From the NCBI GenBank assembly GCA_946902875.1, contig OX336339.1, forward strand, positions 21,173,349 through 21,237,348: DNA of 64,000 nt. The letters are read 5' to 3'. The notes beneath the pieces were generated by a model. It did not search any database and was not told the origin of the DNA. It saw only the letters and a program-made list of their open reading frames with translations. Every line of letters begins with the position of its first letter. Position 1 is the first letter of the stretch. Of this stretch, positions 6,184 through 58,792 are shown piece after piece. Both the position numbers and the translations under genes were made by a program. The stretch comes from Nematopogon swammerdamellus (taxonomy: Eukaryota; Arthropoda; Insecta; Lepidoptera; Adelidae).

Positions 6184-6740
6184 CCCTGTGAGTTATGAGG
6201 CCTGTAAGCAGGTGTAGTGCCGGCAATAGATTTACAACTTTCTGAATTCAATTTCGTTGTTTTCTCCATAAATGTTTTGCCAACGCGCGGGTCGAGTCTC
6301 GTGGGTAAGCGGGTGCGCATCGAGACACAATCTATCAACGTCGGTCAAGCGGCGATTTCAAGCGTTGACGTGCCTCCTCTGTTCCCTCCGGAAGGGCGGG
6401 GGGCACTATGGCGACAGGGGACGCCGACAAAATGATTCTAGACAGTCCCAGTAGAGTGAATTGAAGTGGCCAATTGGGAATTCATTAAACCAGTACTAGG
6501 AATTTAGCACTGAAGAGAAGTTGGAATTTTAGGAAAGGTCAAAGAATTAGATATAATAGGGAAGATCACAGCTTAGGTTGGTTACACGGTAGAACGAGAG
6601 GTACATATTTATTACTGGGCAATAAACACAGAATAGATAATTAAGATTCAGATTCCTTTATCATCTGTACAATAACAAATCGACACACATTTTCGCGAAA
6701 AAAAATTTCAGGGTTAGAGTGCATTGTGATTAGTAACACT
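6184..6740. other. Unassigned, GC-richer centre
   Basis: The part from 6285 to 6430 is GC-richer and open in two frames on the + strand (72 and 60 codons), but it shows no known motif and no splice sites. A short LINE-tail-like AGATTCAGATTCCTTTATCA lies at 6650. Confidence 0.35.
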
Positions 6741-6957
6741 AGTGTTTAACCCGCACGGGTTGGAACCACCGCACTGAATGAAAGGTCGGTTGAAATGGAT
6801 ACGTAAATTGATCGTGTTTTCCGTCCAGTTCAGTGTAGCCGGCACGACCGAAGTGAAGCCCTGACATGGCACCTATTTCACCAATGTTTTATGGGGCTGA
6901 CATCACGAATGTAGTAGGCGATGATGTAGCCAACCGTGTCAGTTTCCATGAAAAAAT
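6741..6957 (+). mobile_element. SINE1, core plus 3' tail, 5'-truncated
   Basis: The copy contains the central domain (TTTAACCCGCACGGGTTGG, ACCACCGCACTGAATG) followed by the family tail (TTCAGTGTAGCCGGCACGAC, CACTGACATGGCACCT-like, TGACATCACG, GATGTAGCC, GTGTCAGTTTCCAT) and an A-rich end. The head is missing, as expected from incomplete reverse transcription. Confidence 0.85.
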
Positions 6958-11085: not shown

Positions 11086-11430
11086 TTATGCAAAAAATGT
11101 TAAATTCTCTTAATTTTGCAAATTTCATTTACATCAAAATCACTGATGAAGAAAAACTTTAAAACGCTTCAACGATTCGCTGCAGCGCTGAACTGAAACG
11201 ACATTTCCAGTTCATTATTTCAAGCGATGCCACGATACGGATATTACAAGGGAAACGATTGCGTCGGGGTCTCGCTTTGATTGCTTCGTTCGTTCGTATT
11301 TTGAGGTCTTGTTATTACTGGCTCTAGGAGACCTCTTCAAAAGCTAAGAAAAATCAAACAAACAAACAAAATGCTGAATGGGCAAGTTTGCAGTCGAGAA
11401 GAATATACCTACCATATAAAGCAAAAGATA
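11086..11430. other. Unassigned
   Basis: No feature was recognised apart from a short CAAACAAACAAA run near 11360. Confidence 0.4.
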
Positions 11431-12011
11431 TCTATACATATAATAAAATCGTAGAGGTAAGAAAGTCTGTACATTGAATATATTCGGAAAAAAACTAACC
11501 AGGGTGGCTTAAAATGAGATACTGAACATGTTAGAACAGTTTTTAAAATTTTTGTTTGTTTGTTTGTTTGTCTGTACGCGCATCACGCAAAAACCACTGA
11601 ACGGAATTAGACGAAACTTTGTATAGTGGCAGTTTATATGCCGGGTTAACATAATACGTAAAAAAAAATAACAAAAAAAAAAAAAAAATTACAATTTATA
11701 AACATTATTGCGCGTTTAAAATCACGTAGTCCAAAGTACATAATTATATCTTGAGAACTGGCAGCAAATACAATTTGAATAAAATATTCATTCGAAATTT
11801 AAAAATAAGTAGATACAACGAAAATGACAGTTCTTCTTTTTTATAACTTGAACACAATAGTCTATACATATCTATTCTTTCTATACATATCATAAAATCG
11901 TAAATGCAAAAATGTCTATTTGTACGCGCATCTCGCAAAAACCACTGAACGGAATTTGACGAAACTTTTTATAGTGACAGTGTATATCCCGGATGAACAT
12001 AATAATTATAA
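11431..12011 (+). repeat. 580-bp tandem duplication, unit 1 (Helitron 5'-end-like)
   Basis: The unit starts TCTATACATATAATAAAATC, which resembles 5' ends of lepidopteran Helitron-type elements. It contains two related half-units, around 'ACGCGCATCACGCAAAAACC' (11577) and 'ACGCGCATCTCGCAAAAACC' (11925). Unit 2 follows at once and differs, as far as I can see, only by one A in a poly-A run. Confidence 0.8.
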
Positions 12012-12591
12012 TCTATACATATAATAAAATCGTAGAGGTAAGAAAGTCTGTACATTGAATATATTCGGAAAAAAACTAACCAGGGTGGCTTAAAATGAGA
12101 TACTGAACATGTTAGAACAGTTTTTAAAATTTTTGTTTGTTTGTTTGTTTGTCTGTACGCGCATCACGCAAAAACCACTGAACGGAATTAGACGAAACTT
12201 TGTATAGTGGCAGTTTATATGCCGGGTTAACATAATACGTAAAAAAAAATAACAAAAAAAAAAAAAAATTACAATTTATAAACATTATTGCGCGTTTAAA
12301 ATCACGTAGTCCAAAGTACATAATTATATCTTGAGAACTGGCAGCAAATACAATTTGAATAAAATATTCATTCGAAATTTAAAAATAAGTAGATACAACG
12401 AAAATGACAGTTCTTCTTTTTTATAACTTGAACACAATAGTCTATACATATCTATTCTTTCTATACATATCATAAAATCGTAAATGCAAAAATGTCTATT
12501 TGTACGCGCATCTCGCAAAAACCACTGAACGGAATTTGACGAAACTTTTTATAGTGACAGTGTATATCCCGGATGAACATAATAATTAAAA
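12012..12591 (+). repeat. 580-bp tandem duplication, unit 2
   Basis: It is a near-perfect copy of 11431-12011. The 64-codon - strand frame is identical in both (11744-11938 and 12324-12518). The poly-A run near 12254 has 15 A instead of 16. The duplication must be recent, or reflect sequence homogenisation or an assembly artefact. Confidence 0.85.
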
Positions 12592-12772
12592 AATATAATA
12601 AAAATCACGTAATCCAAAGTAAAGGTAAAAAACTATTTTAAATGTCATGTTGACAACGGAGAACTGTCATCTCGACGTGAGTTGGCCGGTGACAAATTGT
12701 TTGATAAATAAAAATAATAATTGAAAGTCGAAGTTATGTCGCTGTCATTGGTGCAATAAAATTTATATATCT

Positions 12773-13300
12773 GTTGCCCGCGGCTTCGCTCGCGTGAAAT
12801 TCGTATTTTAAAAAAAGAAAGTAAGTAACTAAAGGCGGGCTTGAAGGCGGAGCTGAGTTCAGGAAGAAGAAAAACATTCTTGAAGAAAGTAAGTAACTAA
12901 GGGCGAGGCCGAAGGCCGAGCTCTATTCTGGAAGACCATAAACCTTCTCGAAGAAAGTAAGTAACTATGGGCGAGGCCGCAGGCCGAGCTGCGTTCAGGA
13001 AGAAGCTAAACCATCTTGAAGAAAGTAAGTAACTAAGGCGAGGCCGAAGGCCGAGCTACGTTCTGACAAATGATAAACCATCTCGAAGAAAGCAAGTAAC
13101 TAAGGGCGAGGCCGAAGGCCGAGCTGCGTTCAGGAAGAAGCTAAACCATCTTGAAGAAAGTAAGCAACTAAGGCGAGGCCGAAGGCCGAGCTACGTTCTG
13201 ACAAATGATAAACCATCTCGAAGAAAGCAAGTAACTAAGGGCGAGGCCGAAGGCCGAGCTGCGTTCAGGAAGAAGCTAATCCATCTCGAATAAAGTTAAT
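12773..13300 (-). repeat. 68-bp minisatellite, array 1 (about 7 units) with Helitron-type end
   Basis: It opens with TTGCCCGCGGCTTCGCTCGC plus GTGAAATTCG, the Helitron 3'-end block in - orientation. It then continues as a tandem array whose unit reads GGGCGAGGCCGAAGGCCGAG, CTGCGTTCAGGAAGA, a 'TAAACCATCT' part and GAAGAAAGTAAGTAACTAA. Units are about 66-68 bp and differ by a few substitutions. Confidence 0.85.
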
Positions 13301-14485: not shown

Positions 14486-16196
14486 TTGCCCGCGGCTTCG
14501 CTCGCGTGAAATTCGTATTTCAAAGAAAAAAATTAAGTAACTGAGGGCGAGCTGGGTTCAGGTAAACGATAAACCGTCTCGAAGAAAGTGAGTAACTTTT
14601 TGAGGCCGAAGGCGAAGTTGCGTTCAGGAAGACGATAAACCTTCTCGAAGACAGTAAGTAACTATGGGCGAGGCCGAAGGCCGAGCTGCGTTCAGGAAGA
14701 GGATAAACCATCTTTAAGAAAGTAAGTAACAAAGGGCGAGGCCGAAGGCCGAGCTGCGTTCAGGAAGAGGATAACCTTTTCGAAGAAAGTAAGTAATTAT
14801 GGGCGAGGCCGAAGGCCGAGCTGCGTTCAGGATGAGGGTAAACTTTTCGAAGAAAGTAAGTAACAGAGGGCGAGGCTGATGGCGGAGCTGCGTTCAGGAA
14901 AACGATAAACCTTCTCGAAGACAGTAAGTAACTATGGGCGAGGCCGAAGGCCGAGCTGCGTTCAGGAAGAGGATAACCTTTTCGAAGAAAGTAAGTAACA
15001 GAGGGCGAGGCCGAAGGCCGAGCTGCGTTCAGGAAGACGATAAACCTTTTCGAAGACAGTAAGTAACTATGGGCGAGGCCGAAGGCCGAGCTGCATTCAG
15101 CATGCGGGTAAACTTTTCGAAGAAAGTAAGTAACAGAGGGCGAGGCCGAAGGCCGAGCTGCGTTCAGGAAGACGATAAACCTTTTCGAAGACAGTAAGTA
15201 ACTATGGGCGAGGCCGAAGGCCGAGCTGCATTCAGCATGCGGGTAAACTTTTCGAAGAAAGTAAGTAACAGAGGGCGAGGCCGAAGGCCGAGCTGCGTTC
15301 AGGAAAACGATAAACCTTCTCGAAGACAGTAAGTAACTATGGGCGAGGCCGAAGGCCGAGCTGCGTTCAGGAAGAGGATGACCTGTTCGAAGAAAGTAAG
15401 TAACAGAGGGCGAGGCCGAAAGCCGAGCTTCGTTCAGGAAGACGATAAACCTTTTCGAAGACAGTAAGTAACTATAGGCGAGGCCGAAGGCCGAGCTGCG
15501 TTAAGGAAGACGATAAATTCTCGAAGACGGTAAGTAACTATGGGCAAGGCCGAAGGCCGAAATATGTTCAGGAAGAGGATAAACCTTTTCGAAGAAAGTA
15601 AGTAACAAAGAAGTTACTTTCTTCGAGAAGATTTATGGTCTTCCTGAACGCAGCTCGGCCTTCGGACTCGCCCTCGGTTACTTACATTCTTCGAAAAGGT
15701 TATCCTCTTCCTGAACGCAACTCGGCCTTCGGCCTCGCCCTTTGTTACTTACTTCTTAAAGATGGTTTATCCTCTTCGTGAACGCAGCTCGGCCTTCGGC
15801 CTCGCCCATAGTTACTTACTATCTTCGAAAAAGTTTATCGTCTTCCTGAACGCAGCTCGGCCTTCGGCCTCGCCCTCTGTTACTTACTTTCTTCGAAAAG
15901 GTTATCCTCTTCCTGAACGCAGCTCGGCCTTCGGCCTCGCCCTTTGTTACTTACTTTCTTATAGATGGTTTGTCCTCTTCCTGAACGAAGCTCGGCCTTC
16001 GGCCTCGCCCATAGTTACTTACTGTCTTCGAGAAGGTTTATCGTCTTCCTGAACGCAACTCCGCCTTCGGCCTCAAAAAGTTACTCACTTTCTTCGAGAT
16101 GGTTTATCGTTTACCTGAACCCAGCTCGCCTTAGTTACTTACTTTCTTCCTTTGAAATACAAATTTCACGCGAGCGAAGCCGCGGGCAAAAGCTAG
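14486..16196. mobile_element. Palindromic minisatellite element bounded by Helitron-type ends (array 2)
   Basis: The left edge reads TTGCCCGCGGCTTCGCTCGC and the right edge is its complement, ending GGGCAAAAGCTAG before T (16193-16196). Between them lie about 15-16 units of the 68-bp minisatellite in one direction (14545-15608) and about 8 in the other (15610-16150), turning at 15600-15615. The outermost units of both arms carry the same variants in the same order: a shortened first unit with 'GGTAAACGATAAAC', then 'GTGAGTAACTTTTTGAGG', then a 'GACAGTAAGTAACTATGGGC' unit. The arms are therefore copies of one ancestral sequence. About 135-bp dimer periodicity is visible near 15091 and 15226. 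The unit also encodes shifting frames, which I do not call genes. Confidence 0.8.
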
Positions 16197-24660: not shown

Positions 24661-24952
24661 TTTTTTTTTTATGGAAACTGACACGGTTGGCTACATCACC
24701 TACAACATCCGTGATGTCAGCCCATAACACCGGGTGAACTAGTTGGCCATGTCAGTGCTTCCCTTCGGTCGTGCCGGCTACACTGAACTGGACGGAAAAC
24801 GACCTTTCATTCAGTGCGGTGGTACCAACCCGGGCGGGTTAAACCCTACCACCTAGTAATATAAGAGGGGAGTCATATCCCTTAGTCGCCTTTTACGACA
24901 TACACGTGGAGAGATGCAGTGGGGCTTTTAAAGTACCGGCCCCACACGGTAC
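24661..24952 (-). mobile_element. SINE1 with the third head type
   Basis: Read on the - strand, it runs GTGTGGGGCCGGTACTTTAA, CCCCACTGCATCTCTCC, 'TCGTAAAAGGCGACTAAGGG', then the shared core from ACTAGGTGGTAGGGTTTAAC, and the SINE1 tail ending in GTTTCCAT and poly-A. The tRNA/5S head is replaced. The junction (TATGACTCCC...TATTACTAGG) is the same as in 31423-31755, so this is a subfamily, not a chance hybrid. Confidence 0.8.
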
Positions 24953-25371
24953 AAAAGGGTGTTACATAAGCGGTGACTAGACGACTCGTCAAAAATCTTT
25001 CCTCCCACGCGGGTGCGCGACGCGGCCGCGCCGCCGGCGCCGTAGCCCCTATCCATTCTCGCTATAAAATTATTAAAATACTTTGATAAATTACAAAGCG
25101 GTCGCTGGCCGGCTCCGAATTCCGTCCTTGCCGCTTTAATTCTCGCCGCGCTGAGGGGATGCTTTTGTCCTGAAGCAAGACGTCATCTCTCGATATCTGT
25201 TATAGTGATAAGCGCGAGGTCACTCCCTGAGGGCAATGTTACTACGGTATTACGTTACGAAACGCTACGATCTGGGTACCAGAGGGATAGAGAGAATACC
25301 AATGAATACCGCTATATGGCTGGGCGTAAAACCAGCGTCGAATCTAGTGAAGATGTTCTCTGTTATCTGTT
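24953..25371. other. Unassigned, GC-rich patch at 25005-25050
   Basis: CG-rich words (GCGACGCGGCCGCGCCGCCG) occur without splice or start signals. The rest shows nothing recognisable. Confidence 0.35.
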
Positions 25372-25789
25372 ATTATTATTTTTTTATGTAATCCTCTATG
25401 GTTGGCTGAGTCGGAGGGGCCAAAGCACATGCTCCGACCAGCCAATATCACCTCCGAGAAGGTAGGTGCCATACCGGAGACTTCCCTGGATTGCTGGCTA
25501 TACTGGACTAGAGGAGAACACAACCGAGGCTGCTATGCGGCCATCTTACATCCAGTACGGTGGTACCAACCTAGTCGGCTGCAATTTTAGCCTACCACCT
25601 AGTAAGGGGCAAGGGAGGATTGAAGGGACCTACAGTTTTACACCGGTTCCGAACGGTGAAGCAGCAGGTGTAGGTATGCACGTAAATTTTTTCGTCAGAA
25701 TAAACTCATTGGTACACGCCGACCGGATTCGAACCTCGGACCTCTCGCACGAGAAGCCGATGCCCAAACCACTCGGCCACCCGCCGCTT
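25372..25789 (-). mobile_element. SINE2 (tRNA head), full length
   Basis: On the - strand the head reads GGCGGGTGGCCGAGTGG (pol III A box TGGCCGAGTGG) and, about 40 bp on, GAGGTTCGAATCCGG (B box GGTTCGAATCC). A body with the shared core (ACTAGGTGGTAGG and GGTTGGTACCACCG) and a tail ending 'CAACCATAGAGGATTACATA' and A-rich sequence follow. About 418 bp. Other copies are at 38686-39090 and 50225-50584. Confidence 0.85.
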
Positions 25790-25899
25790 GGTAGCGTTAG
25801 CGTAGACTATCTCCGGGTTCCACTGCGAAGACAGAAGGAGGGTTTTGATTTCGGCGGCGGTGTATGTATTTATTTATGTACGGAAATTCTTTTTATGAT

Positions 25900-26090
25900 A
25901 TTCTTTATTCTTTATTCTTTATTCATCATTCGTATGGTAGTACACTACGCTTGAATTTGTCCTGTTAGTTTTTACAATCCGGTTCGATTACACCCACAAA
26001 GAAGAGCCGGCAAGAAACTTCGCAGGGTTCTTTTTTTAACGTCTTCAATTACAATACATTGTGACTAGCTACATAATAGACACCGCTTAC
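25900..26090 (-). repeat. LINE 3'-tail-like repeat, relative of B
   Basis: A TTCTTTATTCTTTATTC run is followed by 'AAGAGCCGGCAAGAAACTTC' and a T-rich block, the same arrangement as 3330-3640 but diverged. Confidence 0.5.
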
Positions 26091-26846
26091 AGTGTTAAGA
26101 TATAGTTTGAGAGCTAGAATAACTATAATTTAATTATAATTTAACTATAATAACTATAATTTAAGCTTGATAATTCTGACCACATAAAATCAAAAGTTAA
26201 AGTAAAAGTATAGATAAAATCAGGTGTATAGAGCCTTTGTCAGAAATTGTTGATACATATCGTATCAAGTCATGTCAGTTATAAATATTCATACCACATT
26301 GTAGTACAATGTCAAATAAAATAAATAAATTTGATACTTAATGTATCAATTAGTCAAAGTAATATTTCAGTATGCGTGCTAAATAAACTTGATACTTAAT
26401 GTATCAATTAGTCAAATTAATATTTAGCATGCGTCAGCAGTATAAATTAAGGTACAGGTTGTACCCCGTCAAAATTCAAAATTTGTATGCAGTCAGAATC
26501 TCAAGCGAACATGTTTGTAGCATTTTCAGTTTATACCAGTGATAATACGAGGTAGTACAAATCTCAAAGACCAAAAAGTAATGTGATGAAAAATATAAAT
26601 CTGCGACAAATGTAACAGTTCATGACAGATACTATAGTTCCTTTTAAAAATATACGCCTAGCATATAAAATATACAATGTTACCAATTGGAGCAGGCCAG
26701 TCTCCACGAACAGCACCCGTTCACGAGCATCACGCTAGGGCCAGCCATCGCTTCCCTCAACCATATTTTAGGGAGAGAGGCGACCGGATAGATTAATAAA
26801 GGCGAGCCGGGATGATGTTGGCCTATCACACCTAAAGGTAGAGTAG
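26091..26846. other. Unassigned, with three TTGATAC-N5-GTATCAA dyads
   Basis: Perfect 7-bp dyads with a 5-bp spacer lie at 26250-26268, 26331-26349 and 26389-26407. The last two sit in a 58-bp direct repeat that also includes ATTAGTCAAA. No gene was recognised nearby. Confidence 0.55.
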
Positions 26847-26940
26847 ATGCCGTGTCAGTGCTTCCTTTTATTTGCGTCGGTTACACTGAACTGGACAGAA
26901 AACACGAACTATTTTCTATCATAGTCGTTTCGACTTGCGT
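26847..26940 (-). mobile_element. SINE1 fragment
   Basis: 'GTCAGTGCTTCCTTTTATTT', 'CGGTTACACTGAACTGGACA' and 'TAGTCGTTTCGACT' are from the middle of the SINE1 tail. Confidence 0.75.
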
Positions 26941-26989
26941 TAAACTGTACCTTTTGCAAAAATTTTAAGGGCAGTAGACATATTTAGAT

Positions 26990-27152
26990 TTTTTAGGTTT
27001 TCGTACCCACTATGGAAGCCTATTACTAAGCCTACGCCGTCTGTCTGTCTATCTGTCTGTCTGTCTGCCCTACTGCTGTATCTTTGGAACCGTAAAAAGT
27101 AGCCGGTTGAAATTTTAACAGAATATCTATTATTATGGCGAATATAAAATTC
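26990..27152 (+). repeat. AGGGTTCCGTA-family left part
   Basis: It runs 'TTAGGTTTTCGTACCCACTA', CTATTACTAAGCCTACGCCG, a TCTGTCTG run, 'GCTGTATCTTTGGAACCGTA' and 'GCCGGTTGAAATTTTAACAG'. It matches the first third of 32465-32936. Confidence 0.65.
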
Positions 27153-27166
27153 GATAAATCCTTACC

Positions 27167-27385
27167 TATAATAAAATCCAACGTCTGCTTTCTGTCTGTC
27201 TGAGTGTCTGTCTGTCCGCTTATAACTCGAGAACCACTGAACCGATTTTAATAAAACAAAATTCTACGGATAGCTTGATTCTTCCCATCAACTATAGGCT
27301 ACTTACTATCACGCTAAATGGCTTATGAGGTCAGCAGAGAAGTCAAATATGAGAGCGGGCGGAGCCGCGGGCTCAGCTATTCGAT
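27167..27385 (+). mobile_element. Short complete Helitron-like element
   Basis: It starts near 'ACCTATAATAAAATCCAACG' and ends 'GGCGGAGCCGCGGGCTCAGC' then TA before T. The interior (AACTCGAGAACCACTGAACC, 'ATCACGCTAAATGGCT') is shared in style with 9194-9581. Confidence 0.6.
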
Positions 27386-27415
27386 ATAAAGGTGGAAACA
27401 GCTATGTTAATAGTT

Positions 27416-27551
27416 TGTGTTTTCCGACCAGTTCAGTGTAGCCGGCACGATCAAAGAGAGAAGCACTGACATGGCACCTAGTTCACCCGGTGTTATGGGC
27501 TGACATCACGGACATTGTAGGTGATGTAGCCAACGGTGTCAGTTACCACAA
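27416..27551 (+). mobile_element. SINE1 tail
   Basis: TTCAGTGTAGCCGGCACGAT through 'GTTATGGGCTGACATCACGG' to a diverged end, CCAACGGTGTCAGTTACCAC, plus A-rich sequence. Confidence 0.8.
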
Positions 27552-27617
27552 AAAATATATATATAACAGCAAATCATAAAAATAGTAAAAATAATACATT
27601 AATCCCATTTTTCGTTT

Positions 27618-28649: not shown

Positions 28650-28918
28650 TTTACAACATCCGTGATGTCAGCCCATAACACCGGGTGAACTAGGTGCCAT
28701 GTCAGTGCTTCCCTTCGATCGTGGCGGCTAAACTTAACTGGACGGAAAACCAACCATTTACATAGCCGTTTCCACCGACGACGTTTAATTCAGTGCTTTT
28801 CATTCAGTGCGGTGGTACCAACCCGGGCCGGATAAACCCTACCATCTATTAAGGAAAAAAGGGAAGGGACCTACAGTTTACGTGGAATTACGACCACGGT
28901 CAGCCCCCAACATAATAA
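28650..28918 (-). mobile_element. SINE1, core plus tail, inner duplication
   Basis: Tail and core are present ('ACAACATCCGTGATGTCAGC', 'ACCAACCCGGGCCGGATAAA', 'GGGACCTACAGTTTACG'). The word TTCAGTGC occurs twice in tandem near 28790, a small local duplication. The head is lost. Confidence 0.85.
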
Positions 28919-29904: not shown

Positions 29905-30143
29905 GTTTTATGTAAATTGACACTGTTGTCTACATCAATTACAACATCCGTGATTTCACCCCATTACTCCTTCGTGAAATAGGTGCCATATCAGTGTTTC
30001 CCTTTGGTTTTGCCGGCTACACTGAACTGGACGGAAAACACAAACTATTTACATAGCCGTTTCGACTGACCTTTGATTCAGTGCGGTGGTACCAATGCGG
30101 GCGGGTTAAACCCTGCCGCTAAGTGAGGTAAGGAGGGAGGGAA
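29905..30143 (-). mobile_element. SINE1, core plus tail
   Basis: 'AATTGACACTGTTGTCTACA', 'GTGCGGTGGTACCAATGCGG' and 'GTTAAACCCTGCCGCTAAG' mark tail and core. It is more diverged than other copies, so probably older. Confidence 0.85.
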
Positions 30144-31422: not shown

Positions 31423-31755
31423 CTTTTATTTTTTTTATGGAAACTGACACGGTTGGCTACATCACCTACAACATCCGTGATGTCAGCCCATAACACCGGA
31501 TGAACTTGTTGCCACATCAGTGCTTCCCTTCGGTCGTGGCGGTTACACTGAACTGGACGGAAAACACAAACTATTTACATAGCCGTTTCGACCGACCTTT
31601 CATTCAGTGCGGTGGTACCAACCCGGGCGGGTTAAACCCTACCACCTAGTAATATAAGAAGGGAGTCATACATATCCCTTAGTCGCCTTTTACGACATAC
31701 ACGGGGAGAGATGCAGTAGGGCTATTCTTTTAAAGTACCGGCCCCACACGATACC
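31423..31755 (-). mobile_element. SINE1 with the third head type, best copy
   Basis: On the - strand it runs GTGTGGGGCCGGTACTTTAA, 'AGAATAGCCCTACTGCATCT', 'GTCGTAAAAGGCGACTAAGG', the shared core, and a complete SINE1 tail to GTTTCCAT and poly-A (T-run at 31423-31437). It shares head and junction with 24661-24952. Confidence 0.85.
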
Positions 31756-35815: not shown

Positions 35816-37850
35816 CTAGCTGAGCCCGCGGCTCCGCTCGCGTGAACTTCGTATTTCAAAGAAGAAAGTAAGTAACTGAGGGCGAGGCGGAAGGCCGAGC
35901 TGCGTTCTGGAAGACTATAAACCTTCTCGAAGAAAGCAAGTAACTGAGGGCGAGGCCGAAGGGCGAGCTGCGTTGAGGAAGACTATAAACCTTCTCGAAG
36001 AAAGTAAGTAACAGTGGGCAAGGCCGAAGGCCGAGCTGCGTTTAGGAAGACTATAAACCTTCTCGAAGAAAGCAAGTAACTGAGGGCGAGGCCGAAGGCC
36101 GAGCTTCGTTGAGGAAGACTATAAACTTTCTCGAAGAAAGCAAGTAACTGAGGGCGAGGCCGAAGGGCGAGCTGCGTTGAGGAAGACTATAAACCTTCTC
36201 GAAGAAAGTAAGTAACAGTGGGCAAGGCCGAAGGCCGAGCTGCGTTTAGGAAGACTATAAACCTTCTCGAAGAAAGTAAGTAACAAAGGGTGAGGCCGAA
36301 GGCCGAGCTGCGTTCAGGAAGACGATAAACTTTCTCGAAGAAGCAAGTAACTGAGGGCGAGGCCGAAGGCCGAGCTGCGTTGAGGAAGACTATAAACCTT
36401 CTCGAAGAAAGTAAGTAACAGTGGGCGAGGCCGAAGGCCGAGCTGCGTTTAGGAAGACTATAAACCTTCTCGAAGAAAGTAAGTAGCAAAGGGCGAGGCC
36501 GAAGGCCGAGCTGCGTTCAGGAAGGCGATAAATTTTCTCGAAGAAAGTAAGTAACTGAGGGCGAGGCCGAAGGCCGAGCTGCGTTCAGGAAGACTATAAA
36601 CCTTCTCGATGAAAGTAAGTAACAAAGGGTGAGGCCGAAGGCCGAGCTGCGTTCAGGAAGACGATAAACTTTCTCGAAGAAAGCAAGTAACTGAGGGCGA
36701 GGCCGAAGGCCGAGCTGCGTTGAGGAAGACTATAAACCTTCTCGAAGAAAGTAAGTAGCAAAGGGCGAGGCCGAAGGCCGAGCTGCGTTCAGGAAGACGA
36801 TAAACTTTCTCGAAGAAAGTAAGTAACTGAGGGCGAGGCCGAAGGCCGAGCTGCGTTCAGGAAGACTATAAACCTTCTCGAAGAAAGTAAGTAACAAAGG
36901 GCGAGGCCGAAGGCCGAGCTGCGTTCGGGAAGACGATAAACCTTCTCGAAGAAAGTAAGTAACTGAGGGCGAGGCCGAAGGCCGAGCTGCGTTCACGAAG
37001 ACGATAAACTTTCTCGTAGAAATAAAGTAACTGAGGGCGAGGCCGAAGGCCGAGCTGCGTTCAGGAAGACTATAAACCTTCTCGAAGAAAGTAAGCAACA
37101 GAGTGCGAGGCCGAAGGCCGAGCTGCGTTCAGGAAGACGATAACCTTTTCGAAGAAAGTAAGTAACAGAGGGCGAGGCCGAAGGCCGAGCTGCGTTCAGG
37201 AAAAATATAAACCTTCTCGAAGAAATTAAGTAATTGAGGGCGAGGCCGAAGGCCGAGCTTCGTTCAGGAAGACTATAAACCTTCTTGATGAAAGTACGTA
37301 ACTGAGGGCGAGGCCGAAGGCCGAGCTGCATTCAGGAAGACTATAAACCTTCTTGATGAAAGTAAGTAACTGAGGGCGAGGCCGAAGGCCGAGCTGCGTT
37401 CAGGAAGACTATAAACCTTCTCGAAGAAATTAAGTAATTGAGGGCGAGGCCGAAGGCCGAGCTGCGTTCAGGAAGACTATAAACCTTCTTAATGAAAGTA
37501 CGTAACTGAGGGCGAGGCCGAAGGCCGAGCTGCGTTCAGGAAGACGATGACCGTTTCGAAGAAAGTAAGTAACAGAGGGCGAGGCCGAAGGCCGAGCTGC
37601 GTTCAGGAAGGCCAATAACCTTCTCGATGAAAGTAAGTAACTAAGGGCGATGCCGACGGCCGAGCTGCGTTCAGGAAAACTATAAACCTTCTCGAAGAAA
37701 TTAAGTAATTGAGGGCGACGCGGAAGGCCGAGCTGCGTTCAGGAAGACTATAAACCATCTTGAAGAAAGTAAGTAACTATCGCCCATAGTTACTTACTGT
37801 CATCGAGAAGGTTTAGCGTCTTCCAGGATACAGGTCGGCCTTCGGCAAAA
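35816..37850 (-). repeat. 68-bp minisatellite, array 3 (about 28 units) with Helitron-type end
   Basis: It begins at CTAGCTGAGCCCGCGGCTCC plus GCTCGCGTGAACTTCG (Helitron-type 3' end in - orientation). About 28 tandem units of 66-69 bp follow up to about 37785, then one partial unit in the opposite direction (37785-37848). Units alternate between TAACTGAG, TAACAAAG and TAACAGTG endings. An exact pattern recurs with a 204-bp (three-unit) period near 36011 and 36215, a higher-order repeat. Long translated frames here are by-products of the repeat. Confidence 0.85.
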
Positions 37851-38640: not shown

Positions 38641-38685
38641 GAAGTATGGATTGATAAATAAAATAGCATTCTATCAATATCAATA

Positions 38686-39090
38686 AGCGGCGGGTCGCCG
38701 AGTGGTTTGAGCATCGGCTTCTCATGCGAGAGGTCCGAGGTTCGAATCCGGTCGGCATGTACCAATGAGTTTTTTCTGACGAAAAAATTTACGTGCATAC
38801 CTACACCCGCTGCTTCATCGTTCGGAACCGGCTTAAAACTGTAGGTCCCTTCCCTTACCCCTTACTAGGTGGTAGGCTCAAATTGTAGCCGACTGGGTTG
38901 GTACCACCGTACTGGATGTAAGATGGCCGCATAGCAGGCTCGGTTGTGTTCTCCTCTAGTCCAGTATAGCCAACAATCCAGGGAACTCTCCGGTATGTCA
39001 CCTACCTTCTCGGAGGTGATATTGGCTAGTCAGAGCATGTGCTTTGGCCCCTCTGACTCAGCCACCCATACCGGATTACATAAAAAAAAA
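38686..39090 (+). mobile_element. SINE2 (tRNA head), full length
   Basis: The head AAGCGGCGGGTCGCCGAGTG contains a mutated A box (TCGCCGAGTGG), followed by GAGGTTCGAATCCGG (B box). The shared core (CTAGGTGGTAGG, 'GGGTTGGTACCACCGTACTG') and the tail 'CTCAGCCACCCATACCGGAT' TACATAAAAAAAAA follow. The tail resembles the 3' end of the LINE at 49742-50190. About 405 bp. Confidence 0.88.
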
Positions 39091-39620
39091 GTAAACTGCG
39101 GCGCGTCGCTTTGCGATTTTATCGCAAGAACCTTCACATCCGAATTGTCACATTAAAAATGTTAAATGATACAAATAATCCTGGTAAATATCAAGAAATA
39201 ATTAACTATGACTTAAATAAATATTCATCAGTTCGTTATATACACTCGACACGCAAAATGTCCGCACATCACTTTTCCAACTGAGACGTTGCGTCGCACG
39301 CAATTCAACGCATCCATTTGCGTGTGAGCAAACCGGATTATGCGACTCACTAGATCGCTCTCGAAAAACGCCGAATTCCAACGGCGTGATTGAAAATCGC
39401 GATCCGCGGCCTCATCGTGAAAGCCTTCGGGGGTGAGGGGCGGGGGCGGGAGGGGGTGGAGTATGAGGAGGAGGGTTGAGGGGATCGTTGAAGGAGCACT
39501 CGGAAATCGCAACAATTGTGGCAAGCAAATTATTGAGGCCCCGAGGAAAACAAAATAGTATAACTGTGAATGTCACAGAGTTTACTTAAAATCATCGTGA
39601 AATCACTTCACTTTTTTGTA
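39091..39620. other. Unassigned, G-rich patch at 39425-39480
   Basis: A GGGGCGGGGGCGGGAGGGGG stretch could form G-quadruplexes. The neighbouring 98-codon - strand frame (39228-39524) has no recognised family. Confidence 0.35.
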
Positions 39621-40800: not shown

Positions 40801-41347
40801 GTGTAACTATTTCATATTGTAGCTGAATTGGTATGTCACCCCTCTGTCTCCATGATAATATATAAGTATATATATAAGTAAGAAGTATATACATTTATTT
40901 TTATTTATTTATGTAGTATTCGTTTGTAGTGAAATATATTTATCTATTCCCACATTACTAATGTTCGCCTATAAGTATATACCTCCCGCACATCCCAAGG
41001 TTAGCTAGAATATAACCATTATTATGTCTTTAAACTTGTCATTATTACTAGATCATGTATTGAAACCTTTCTAGATAAGTGTAGCCCCCAGATTTGTTTA
41101 TTCTGTGGTCTCGGGGGACTAACCCGACGGGGGTGGAAAACACGAGCAAACTGGCGCGAGTGCGGAAGACAGTTGTCTCGTATATTGCCCGTGTTTTAAT
41201 TATTTTTTACTTGTTTTATTTGCGGGTTCAAATATTGGGGAAGAGTCGCATGTGCTCGTAATTTAAAATATGCTTTTGACAGAAACTCGGTTAACATCGA
41301 GAATTTATTTTGCAGAGAAAAATGGCAAATATTTTCAGTTTTATTTT
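40801..41347. other. Unassigned
   Basis: AT-rich; no feature was recognised. Confidence 0.4.
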
Positions 41348-41577
41348 TTATCCGACTTCAAAAAAGGAGGAGGTTCTCAATTCGACTGTATTTTTTTAAT
41401 GTTTGTTACCTCAGAACTTTTGACTGGGTGAACCGATTTTGATGATTATTTTTTCATTTGAAAGCTGGTGCTTCCCATTTCAATTTGGTAAAGGTCAGAT
41501 TGGAAAGGGACAGTACATTGATAGCAAAAAATTACTAAAAAAAAACTGTGAAATAAAAAAACTATTTAAAAAAATAT
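41348..41577 (+). repeat. AACCGACTTCAAAA element, copy 3
   Basis: 'CCGACTTCAAAAAAGGAGGA', 'GGTTCTCAATTCGACTGTAT' and 'CTTTTGACTGGGTGAACCGA' match 21968-22210. The fold-back MITE follows at once, as in the other copy. Confidence 0.75.
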
Positions 41578-41777
41578 AAAAACCGCCTTCAAAAATGTAT
41601 GAAATAAAAAAAATCGAGCCCTAGAGTTGAAGGCGGTGCTAAAGCAAGCAAAAATTATGCATGCAAGAAAAAATTAGTGGATGATATCCATTGTGATTTG
41701 TGTAGCCTTCTTTAGCACCGCCTTCAACTCTAGGGTTCGATTTTTTTTTATTTCATACATTTTTGGAGGCGGTTTTT
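41578..41777. mobile_element. Fold-back MITE with about 66-bp arms, intact
   Basis: The left arm (AAAAACCGCCTTCAAAAATG, then 'GAGCCCTAGAGTTGAAGGCG' GTGCTAAAG) and the right arm (CTTTAGCACCGCCTTCAACT to GGAGGCGGTTTTT) are near-perfect reverse complements around a loop of about 60 bp. It is non-coding. Confidence 0.85.
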
Positions 41778-41937
41778 CGAAAAGATCAAAGTAAGCCGTC
41801 GCATCGCATCAGACTAAGTATAGGGACACAATAAAAAAAAAAATTACATTCGGACAAGACAAAGTAATTTATTTTCATCCAAATTTGTAAACAGTTGTCA
41901 ACTCTAGCCTCAAGGTGACTACTAGCCTGTCGCTCGG
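41778..41937. other. Unassigned
   Basis: Nothing was recognised. Confidence 0.4.
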
Positions 41938-42495
41938 CATCTTATCCCTTAGTTACCTTTTACGACATGCATGGGGAAAGATGCAGTGGGTCAGCCATCC
42001 GTCTTGTTGGTTACCCGAAACATACAGATGGTCTGGCTGGAGTCTCTGCGTCCCAGACGATTTGTAGTATGGCTTAGTCTGTTTGTTACAGATACCTACT
42101 ATCGCGGACGCTGCTCTGTGGGAATATAAGCTGTAACTATAGCATGCCTTATTCCTTGCCACCCGTCCTATCTCCGCATGACTCGTCGCAGAGAGACTCA
42201 GCACCCTTTTGTTGTTGACTTTGGGCTTTGAGAACCTAACGGTTCTCTAAATTTGTTTCTTTGTCGCACCGCTAGGGTGTGGAACTGTCTTCCGCCGAGT
42301 GTGTTTCCCGAATCCTTTAATCTGGGTGTCTTCAAACGACCTATTAACAGGTTAGACAGCCTAGCAACAGTCCGCAAATCTGCTGGCGTGGCACCTAACT
42401 GACCGTGGTTTCGCGAGGAGAGATGGTTTTGGCTCTGTCGAATGCACCGTTGTTGGTCTCTCGGCACAACCACCCATGTTGGTTTACATGAAAAA
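41938..42495 (+). pseudogene. LINE C-terminus with 3' UTR, family A
   Basis: A reversed third-head fragment (41938-41990) is followed by + strand LINE coding remains in several frames: 'GRCSVGI', 'PCHPSYLRMTRRRETQHPFV', 'NGSLNLFLCRTARVWNCLPP' and 'SVFPESFNLGVFKRPINRLD'. The 3' UTR ends GGCACAACCACCCATGTTGG TTTACATGAAAAA. It has the RTARVWN-LP motif of Jockey/CR1-like C-termini. Frameshifts make it a pseudogene. Other copies are at 49742-50190 and 61365-62420. Confidence 0.75.
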
Positions 42496-45414: not shown

Positions 45415-45604
45415 CGACGCACAGTGCAGTGAGCCTTTACCAAAAATCGAAAAATGAGCTATAAATTCCATGGACTTTCATCCTGCCGTTGTAAAGTAGA
45501 TAAGGCATTACTTCTAGGAATTATAGTTATACTCCGTGAACTGCGCTCATTGGCTCATGATCACCCCTCCAACTGGAACAATGTCGCGGCGAGTAGTTAA
45601 TCCC

Positions 45605-45699
45605 TCTTATCAGTTGTATGTTGTCCGTTGCATCGAATGTCCTAACAAAAGTATTAGCAAGTGTTTTGAAGTGATTGAAAATGGATTCTGTAGCCCAAG
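45605..45699 (+). CDS. Possible transcription start and first coding exon inside the Transib-like element
   Basis: TTATCAGTTG at 45608 fits an arthropod initiator (TCAGT). ATG at 45681 has a good context (GAAAATGG) and gives MDSVAQ, followed by an almost consensus donor (AAG then GTACGT, 45700). A good acceptor (TTTTTTTTTCAG, ending about 45952) would continue in frame for 18 residues (ERGSSYKNWSLRHKEQQK) to a stop. This could be the remnant of a transposase gene's 5' end. No domain is recognisable. Confidence 0.3.
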
Positions 45700-46354
45700 G
45701 TACGTAGTTTAATACGTTATATAAATGTTGTCTTTTTGTTTAAGATTTATTTTTCTATTAGGTCTTAAAAATACCCTTGAAAATTATCTATAATTAATGC
45801 AATTCCAAACTTTGACGAAGCTTTAAAAAAAAAGTGCGCAAAGTGTCTCGAGGTTTTTACTTTTTCTTGTAGCTATATTAATGTACTTTCAGATTTAGTA
45901 AAGTTTGTCTGCCAATATCTGCCAATAGGTAATATATAGATTTTTTTTTCAGAGAGGGGATCGTCATACAAAAATTGGAGCTTGCGGCATAAAGAGCAGC
46001 AAAAATGACCGCAAACAAGTTGTATTCAACGAAAAATGTTCTCGTTTGAGTATATTTGAACGATGAAAAATTATAAAAAATGTGAGTAGGTTATATCCTC
46101 GCAGAGGAAGGTATTTACACACAAATATGTGAGAATAGACGGCGATGTTAATGATTATTTGAAAAAAATGGCTCCAGTCTCGCAATGTAGATCTAGATAT
46201 ACCTACCGAATTTAGATTTAAGGGAAGACGATTATTCAGATTCTAATTAGTTTTAACGTTGTAATTTAATATTAATTATAAGTTTAATTATATATATATA
46301 TGATCTATATTCTATATATATAGCTATTATATATAAAAAATAATGTTATATATT

Positions 46355-46385
46355 GAAATATGAATAAAATAAAAATTTTATTTAA
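46355..46385 (+). terminator. Possible polyadenylation signal in the Transib-like element
   Basis: TATGAATAAAATAAAAATTT contains AATAAA about 75 bp before the right end. It fits the 3' end of a transcript starting near 45612. Confidence 0.35.
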
Positions 46386-46445
46386 ATACAGCCGGAGTTT
46401 CGATTTTTGTCCCATTCTTCCATACATTCACTGCACTGTGCGACG

Positions 46446-50224: not shown

Positions 50225-50584
50225 TAAGCGGCGGGTGGCCGAGTGGTTTTGGCACCGGCTTCTCATGCGAGAGGTCGAAGGTTCGCATCTGGTCGGCGTG
50301 TACCAATGAGTTTTTTCTGACGAAAAAATTTGGTGCATATCTTGCAGATTCACCGTTCGGAACCGATGGAAAACTGTAGGTACCTTCCCGTAGCACCGTA
50401 CTGGATGTAAGATGGCCGCGCATAGCAGTCTCGGTTGTGTTCTCCTCTAGCTAGCTAAGTATAGCCAGCAATCCAGGGAAGTCTCCAATATGGCACGTAT
50501 CTTCTTGGAGGTGATATTGGCTGGTCGGAGCATGTGCTTTGGCCCCTCTGACTCAGCCACCCATACCGGATTACATAAAATAAA
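50225..50584 (+). mobile_element. SINE2 (tRNA head), core deleted
   Basis: 'AAGCGGCGGGTGGCCGAGTG' (A box intact), a damaged B box (AGGTTCGCATCTGG), a deletion between 'GTACCTTCCC' and 'ACCGTACTGGATGTAAGATG', then the tail 'CTCAGCCACCCATACCGGAT' TACATAAAATAAAAA. It lies directly after the LINE A 3' end. Confidence 0.85.
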
Positions 50585-51340
50585 AATCAAATGCGAATGC
50601 CAAAAAAATTCACAGATTTCGTGCCTCTCACGACTATCGAGCACATGAAAATGAATCTACGGAATTCGAAAATGAATCTGCGGAATTCGAAAAAAATTGT
50701 CGCTGAGCGACACGAGAAAGTCGGGATAAGGAAAAGGTTAGTTGGGTTCTGATGATGGAGCCGGAAGGAAGCCATAGGAACTCCTAGGCTCAAATTGTAG
50801 CTGACTAAACTGTCCAGAGGAATTTTTCTCAAATTTTTGATATCATTCTTCGTTTCCAAAATATCGAGCGCCAAAATCTAAAATTCGAAAAAAAAAATAT
50901 TTTTTGTTTCACTATTTCGGCCATAACTTTTTTCGTTTTTTACTTTCTCGAATAATTATTTTTGTACCTTACAGCTCTCATGAATACGCGTCTTTTGAGT
51001 CTTCTTTGAATATCATATCTTCACAACTCTCCGAGATATAAGGGGATCGCACTTTTTCGTGAAATCGGGGCCTATACTGAAACGAACCAAAAGACATTTT
51101 CAATGTCAAAAGTCAAAATGGTAAGACATGTCGTTTGCTTTCATGTCAAAAAAAACTTACAAATTAGCGAGAACGTGAATTTCACAAAATATATATCGAA
51201 AATAATCGAATCGGACAGAACAAATTGTGACAAATTCGAGTACAGTCATGCTGTCTAATGAATGCTTAATAAACAATATACAACAACAACAATATACAAT
51301 ATCACGATTTGATTAGATGTCCGTTCCACACTTTTGGAAT
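50585..51340. other. Unassigned; small tandem repeat at 50648-50695
   Basis: AAAATGAATCTACGGAATTC is present twice in tandem with one change. No gene was recognised. Confidence 0.4.
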
Positions 51341-52782: not shown

Positions 52783-52940
52783 GCGTTGAAACTGACACGG
52801 TTGAATACAGCATCCGTGATGTCATCCCATAACACCGGGTGAACTAGGTGCCATGTCAGTGTTTCCCTTCATTTCATGTCGGCTGCACTGAACTGGACGG
52901 AAAATACGAACTATTTACATAGCCGTTTCGACCGATGTGT
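52783..52940 (-). mobile_element. SINE1 tail
   Basis: 'GAAACTGACACGGTTGAATA', 'GCATCCGTGATGTCATCCCA' and 'TTTACATAGCCGTTTCGACC' in - orientation. Confidence 0.8.
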
Positions 52941-58363: not shown

Positions 58364-58680
58364 ATGTACGTACAGTCAGTCAGTCAGTCAGTCAGCGTGT
58401 AAGCGTCCACTGTTGGACATACGCCTCTCCAATTTTCCTCCAGTCCTCCCGGCCTTCAGAGATACGGAACCACTGCTTTCCGCCGACGTACTTGATGTCG
58501 TGGTCCCACCTGACGGGTGGTCTTCCCACACTCCGCTTTACTGTCCACGGCCGCCAGTGTAGGACACGGTTACTCCAACGGTCATCGTCTCTTCGGCTAA
58601 CGTGCCCAGCCCACTGCCACTTGAGCTTAACCACCCGGTGTCCAATATCGACTACTTTGGTGCGTTGACACAAAAGTAGT
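58364..58680 (-). pseudogene. RTE-type LINE C-terminus and 3' end
   Basis: On the - strand the frame 58673-58392 contains 'KVVDIGHRVVKLKWQWAGHV', 'SRRDDDRWSNRVLHWRPWTV', 'GRPPVRWDHDIKYVGGKQWF' and ends 'EDWRKIGEAYVQQWTLTR'. The LKWQWAGHVxRR and GRPPxRWxDD motifs and the EAYVQQW end are characteristic of RTE/BovB-like LINEs. Only the last 93 or so codons remain; the intact family encodes endonuclease plus RT of about 1,000 residues. The 3' end carries (GACT)n (58375-58396), the usual short tandem tail of RTE elements. Smaller copies of the same end are at 31995 and 49155 (+). Confidence 0.88.
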
Positions 58681-58703
58681 CGATCAGCGTCGGGATTTGG
58701 AGA

Positions 58704-58792
58704 GAGACAGTCCGGTTGTAGAGCGTCATCCCTGTCGCACAGTAACCTGCGAATTAGTGCGACAGAGACGACGCTCTACAACCAGACTGTCT
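58704..58792. mobile_element. Small inverted-repeat element
   Basis: GACAGTCCGGTTGTAGAGCG TCATCCCTGTCGCAC pairs with its complement at 58757-58792 (about 31 of 35 positions), with a 16-bp loop. It may be a miniature fold-back element or a structured RNA remnant. Confidence 0.6.

Follow-up and report, generated by a model that had tools for sequence, protein, structure and literature searches.

Structure and boundaries of the element

The locus described here raises the question of whether a 1,021 bp stretch with short inverted ends, located at positions 45420 to 46440 of the window (the whole 64 kb stretch of DNA analysed), is a transposon of the Transib family, and whether its two ends are equivalent. 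A preliminary description had reported 13 bp inverted ends lying 1,021 bp apart and a direct CGACG 5-mer on both sides, and had pointed to the Transib hallmarks of a CACWRTG heptamer and a 5 bp GC-rich duplication. All of these observations were borne out, the heptamer hallmark by CACAGTG and the duplication hallmark by CGACG, and the borders of the element are arranged as follows.

45415..45419, + strand: target-site duplication CGACG, left copy
45420..45432, + strand: left terminal inverted repeat CACAGTGCAGTGA; its first 7 bases are the consensus RSS heptamer CACAGTG
46428..46440, - strand: right terminal inverted repeat CACAGTGCAGTGA, exact match
46441..46445, + strand: target-site duplication CGACG, right copy

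The terminal repeats are identical at 13 of 13 positions and define an outer end-to-end distance of 1,021 bp; elsewhere in the window CACAGTGCAGTGA has one further site, which carries two mismatches. Transib ends begin with a CACWRTG-like heptamer, and the CACAGTG that starts both ends of the element fits this motif at all seven bases. The CGACG flank repeat is exact (5/5), GC-rich and in agreement with CNNNG. Transib duplications in the fly are likewise 5 bp long, as recorded for 532/533 hopper insertions and 7/7 transib2 insertions (PMC3276498). When flank lengths of 2 to 12 were compared, the repeat was exact only at 5 and, trivially, at 2, and boundary shifts of -4 to +7 (lengths 4, 5, 6, 8 and 9) gave an exact repeat only at the reported boundary. 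The 7 bp flanks were identical at 0/7 positions. The 8 bp flanks, CGACGACG and CGACGGCG, were identical at 7/8, a match that arises because the flank is rich in CGA and ACG; for the same reason, part of the CGACG duplication could pre-date the insertion.

Chance expectation and repeat content of the window

We counted every exact 13 nt inverted pair within 6 kb that had an adjoining 5 nt direct repeat. Three such structures were present in the window, the element included, compared with a mean of 0.02 in dinucleotide shuffles (n = 200), where at least one was seen in 4/200 and one with a CAC start in none. Dinucleotide shuffles understate chance because the window is repeat-rich, with 2919 exact 13 nt inverted pairs within 6 kb in the window versus 11.5 in the shuffles. 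Free of this bias is a test on CACWRTG pairs: the 22 CACWRTG sites of the window form seven inverted pairs 100-6000 bp apart, and a 5 nt flank repeat accompanied one of the seven, which is the element, against 0.007 expected.

The two other structures with 5 nt direct repeats were rejected as candidates. The pair at 24688-27532 falls in two copies of a dispersed repeat, and it is a false pair because these copies are inverted; the pair at 41162-42295 has nothing similar outside its 13 bases. The dispersed repeat concerned is approximately 150-330 bp long and is found in both orientations, at 74-87% identity, at 6740-6956, 24663-24952, 27391-27559, 28652-28864, 29906-30139, 31429-31754 and 52788-52935, and another dispersed repeat of approximately 400 bp has three copies (25373-25789, 38685-39094 and 50226-50595; 77-92% identity). 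We also noted 68 bp satellite arrays at 12815-13296, 14544-16132 and 35861-37778, with higher periods of 135 bp and 202-203 bp; between 14544-15606 and 15614-16132 the satellite repeats change orientation across a gap of only 7 bp. A 588 bp head-to-tail repeat (11430-12017 and 12011-12597, spanning 11430-12597 with 99.3% identity) may reflect tandem duplication in the recent past, a pair of terminal repeats or an artefact of assembly.

Unequally spaced subterminal blocks

Beyond the features given in the preliminary description, the follow-up analysis added a subterminal block, CAAAAATCGAAA, and its unequal spacing from the two ends.

45440..45448, + strand: left nonamer-like block CCAAAAATC, 7/9 to ACAAAAACC, behind a 13 bp spacer
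45441..45452, + strand: left subterminal block CAAAAATCGAAA, exact at both ends
46398..46409, - strand: right subterminal block CAAAAATCGAAA, exact at both ends
46402..46410, - strand: right nonamer-like block ACAAAAATC, 8/9 to ACAAAAACC, behind a 23 bp spacer

The two ends have CAAAAATCGAAA in common at 12/12 positions, and the right copy lies 10 bp deeper than the left. Scored against an RSS consensus of heptamer CACAGTG and nonamer ACAAAAACC (PMC8289069), the left end reads CACAGTG-13-CCAAAAATC and the right end CACAGTG-23-ACAAAAATC. A shared word of at least 12 in the subterminal 57 bp was obtained from 1/5000 shuffled end pairs and 5/5000 random real window pairs; within the window the pattern CACAGTGCAGTGA-N7..19-CAAAAATC was confined to the two element ends, and it occurred 0 times in 100 shuffles.

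The nonamer alone was dropped as strong evidence because a nonamer-like block of at least 7/9 stands at a 12±1 or 23±1 spacer behind 6 of the 22 CACWRTG heptamers in the window, only two of these six being the element ends. Exact CACAGTG sites number four in the window, and the two outside the element score 6 and 3 for the nonamer. It is the shared 12-mer together with its 10 bp shift, and not nonamer likeness, that carries the weight of the evidence. Spacers within 12±1 and 23±1 were found at opposite ends of this single copy, as 13 and 23, the short spacer of the left end being 13 and not the canonical 12. With 13 replacing 12, the layout of the element ends resembles that of paired 12/23 V(D)J signals.

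Coding capacity, possible gene relic and host

The element has a G+C content of 31.5%. Its longest stop-free frame is antisense and extends over 92 codons, and the longest frame starting from ATG has 51, far short of the 489 aa transposase of Hztransib (PMC1852546). No full transposase is therefore encoded, in agreement with the non-autonomous status proposed in the preliminary description, and the RAG1L and RAG2L genes that a RAGL transposon carries between its ends are absent, there being no frame above 92 codons. Along the + strand of the interior we noted a possible relic of a gene.

45681..45699, + strand: possible first coding exon relic, ATG...CAAG, then GTACGT
45700..45952, + strand: possible intron GTACGT...TTTTTTTTTCAG, recognised by eye only
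45953..46251, + strand: possible broken second exon, with stops in all frames

By eye, an ATG at 45681 is followed by GTACGT at 45700, a polypyrimidine-CAG stretch up to 45952 and then a broken frame, an arrangement that weakly supports the interior body being a transposase gene remnant after internal loss. The coding relic stays unproven because the PDB and protein searches gave no relative: the exon-like piece returned five PDB sequences, all unrelated endoglucanases (E 0.48-0.79), and the read-through relic pieces returned 45 candidates from a search of 5.8 billion proteins, none of them at E<=10. The longest (antisense) frame, used in a protein search to look for further copies, gave one candidate, likewise not at E<=10. 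A RAG1-core-like transposase was found neither inside the element nor by the relic protein search.

A second copy of the element was not found in the 64 kb window, and its ends are absent from the window's dispersed repeats. Viral contigs, prokaryote genome contigs and phages, which are poor places for moth DNA, contained no match to it. Rfam gave 0 matches for the whole window. Pfam was run on 10 of the 117 window frames of at least 75 codons, of which nine were empty and one had two sub-cut-off hits; a degenerate transposase may still lie elsewhere in the window.

The preliminary description had also assigned the DNA to a moth or butterfly genome, and a neighbouring retroelement-like ORF (58395-58775, - strand) supports this. 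It has 74 relatives at E<=0.001, of which 16/74 carry an organism name; these represent 10 species, presumably all moths or butterflies, and the assignment is supported by 16/16 named relatives. Several of the named relatives of this retroelement tail are called endonuclease-reverse transcriptase.

Comparison with known Transibs and RSSs

The Transib families N1, N2 and N3 of Anopheles are non-autonomous by naming convention. Asymmetric 12/23 (±1) ends have been described for Drosophila melanogaster Transib5 and for Anopheles gambiae Transib2, N1, N2 and N3 (PMC8355894, citing Kapitonov and Jurka 2005), so the unequal 12/23-like Transib layout was already known from fly and Anopheles. Like the element, these families have a heptamer and a nonamer-like block with spacers of 12 or 23 (±1) that are unequal between the ends; compared by description only, they differ in their fly or mosquito hosts, the host of the element being probably a lepidopteran, and in that the element has 13 as its short spacer. 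We found no report of unequal 12/23-like Transib ends in Lepidoptera in a literature search whose coverage lacked the main Transib papers and Repbase.

According to PMC8289069, most Transibs are symmetric, including Hztransib of Helicoverpa zea, which has little or no nonamer similarity and is the only lepidopteran Transib with biochemistry. Hztransib is 3,518 bp long, encodes a 489 aa transposase and has long terminal repeats and a GCTCG duplication (PMC1852546). It shares with the element a lepidopteran host and a 5 bp GC-rich duplication (GCTCG versus CGACG), whereas the element is 1,021 bp long, has no such gene, and has 13 bp repeats and unequal ends in place of long repeats and symmetry. 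The Transib MITEs of Helicoverpa armigera (PMC7764229), here compared by description only, are like the element in being non-autonomous, with CNNNG duplications and inverted ends of 13-27 bp, but measure 83-386 bp as against 1,021 bp.

Relative to the vertebrate 12/23 RSS (consensus of PMC8289069), the element has an identical heptamer, CACAGTG, nonamer-like blocks matching at 8/9 and 7/9, and spacers of 23 and 13. Vertebrate RSSs differ in that they form the borders of gene segments, whereas those of the element are transposon ends with a target duplication, and in a short spacer of 12 as opposed to 13. We know of no involvement of RAG2 in the element.

Identity of the element and alternative explanations

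In our judgement a non-autonomous Transib DNA transposon is the likely identity of the 1,021 bp stretch; this copy has probably undergone internal deletion and would have been mobilised by a RAG1-like transposase encoded elsewhere in the genome. A scheme of binding, nicking, hairpin formation and insertion with a 5 bp stagger is established for Transib and RAG1. Following this scheme, a Transib transposase would bind to each end at its heptamer and its nonamer-like block and nick and cleave 5′ of each CAC, with hairpins forming on the flanks upon cleavage; the excised element would then be joined to a GC-rich target with a 5 bp stagger, and repair of the staggered target would produce the CGACG pair. 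The 10 bp difference between the ends, which like that separating 12 from 23 spacers is about one helical turn, may make them non-equivalent in the synaptic complex, as in 12/23 RSS pairs.

Each of the three other explanations that we weighed, a P element, a hAT5-type element and chance, is possible but requires an extra assumption. P elements have internal transposase sites that are unequally spaced at the two ends, and the 7/8 agreement of the 8 bp flanks could be read as the slightly diverged 8 bp duplication (CGACGACG/CGACGGCG) of a non-autonomous member of the P superfamily. P is known to use GC-rich targets (GTCCGGAC; PMC3276498), and P elements are present in Helicoverpa armigera (PMC7764229). 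This origin is nevertheless improbable, as the 5 bp repeat matches perfectly and no mutation has to be invoked, whereas the three extra bases fall in a CGA/ACG-rich stretch and neither a 7 bp nor an 8 bp duplication is exact (0/7 and 7/8). CACWRTG moreover fits at 7/7 bases, the inner shared block is RSS-nonamer-like, and the ends of P are 31 bp in the fly (PMC10299278).

We consider it very improbable that another cut-and-paste superfamily giving 5 bp duplications, such as the hAT5 group, is responsible. The CACAGTG start of the element is unlike the usual hAT start, and to our knowledge no hAT has an RSS-like heptamer/nonamer arrangement. At the duplication lengths of hAT the flanks of the element agree at 7/8 for 8 bp and exactly for 5 bp (hAT5), and hAT families with 5 bp duplications do exist (PMC12730594). 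The least probable explanation is that the ends are chance inverted repeats in repeat-rich DNA with no transposon between them; the 2919 inverted pairs counted above lend it some substance, as do the two other pairs with 5 nt direct repeats, at least one of which is an accident of dispersed repeats, but the ends of the element fall outside every dispersed repeat in the window, and they combine exact termini, an exact duplication and a further shared 12-mer.

Significance of the unequal ends

Read as a Transib element, the locus would be a RAG-kin transposon of a moth or butterfly in which CACAGTG with nonamers matching at 8/9 and 7/9, at 23 and 13 bp, makes up a near-canonical V(D)J signal pair. 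We suggest only tentatively, and with considerable doubt, that 12/23-type asymmetry is functional in an extant insect lineage, where it would depend on a RAG1-like enzyme acting without RAG2. The origin of the 12/23 rule of antibody-gene assembly is an open question on which the element bears. The single copy seen here would place unequal ends of RSS type in a further insect order and so extend the layout beyond flies and mosquitoes; the element also provides a natural end pair for measuring the preference of Transib transposase or RAG for unlike ends.
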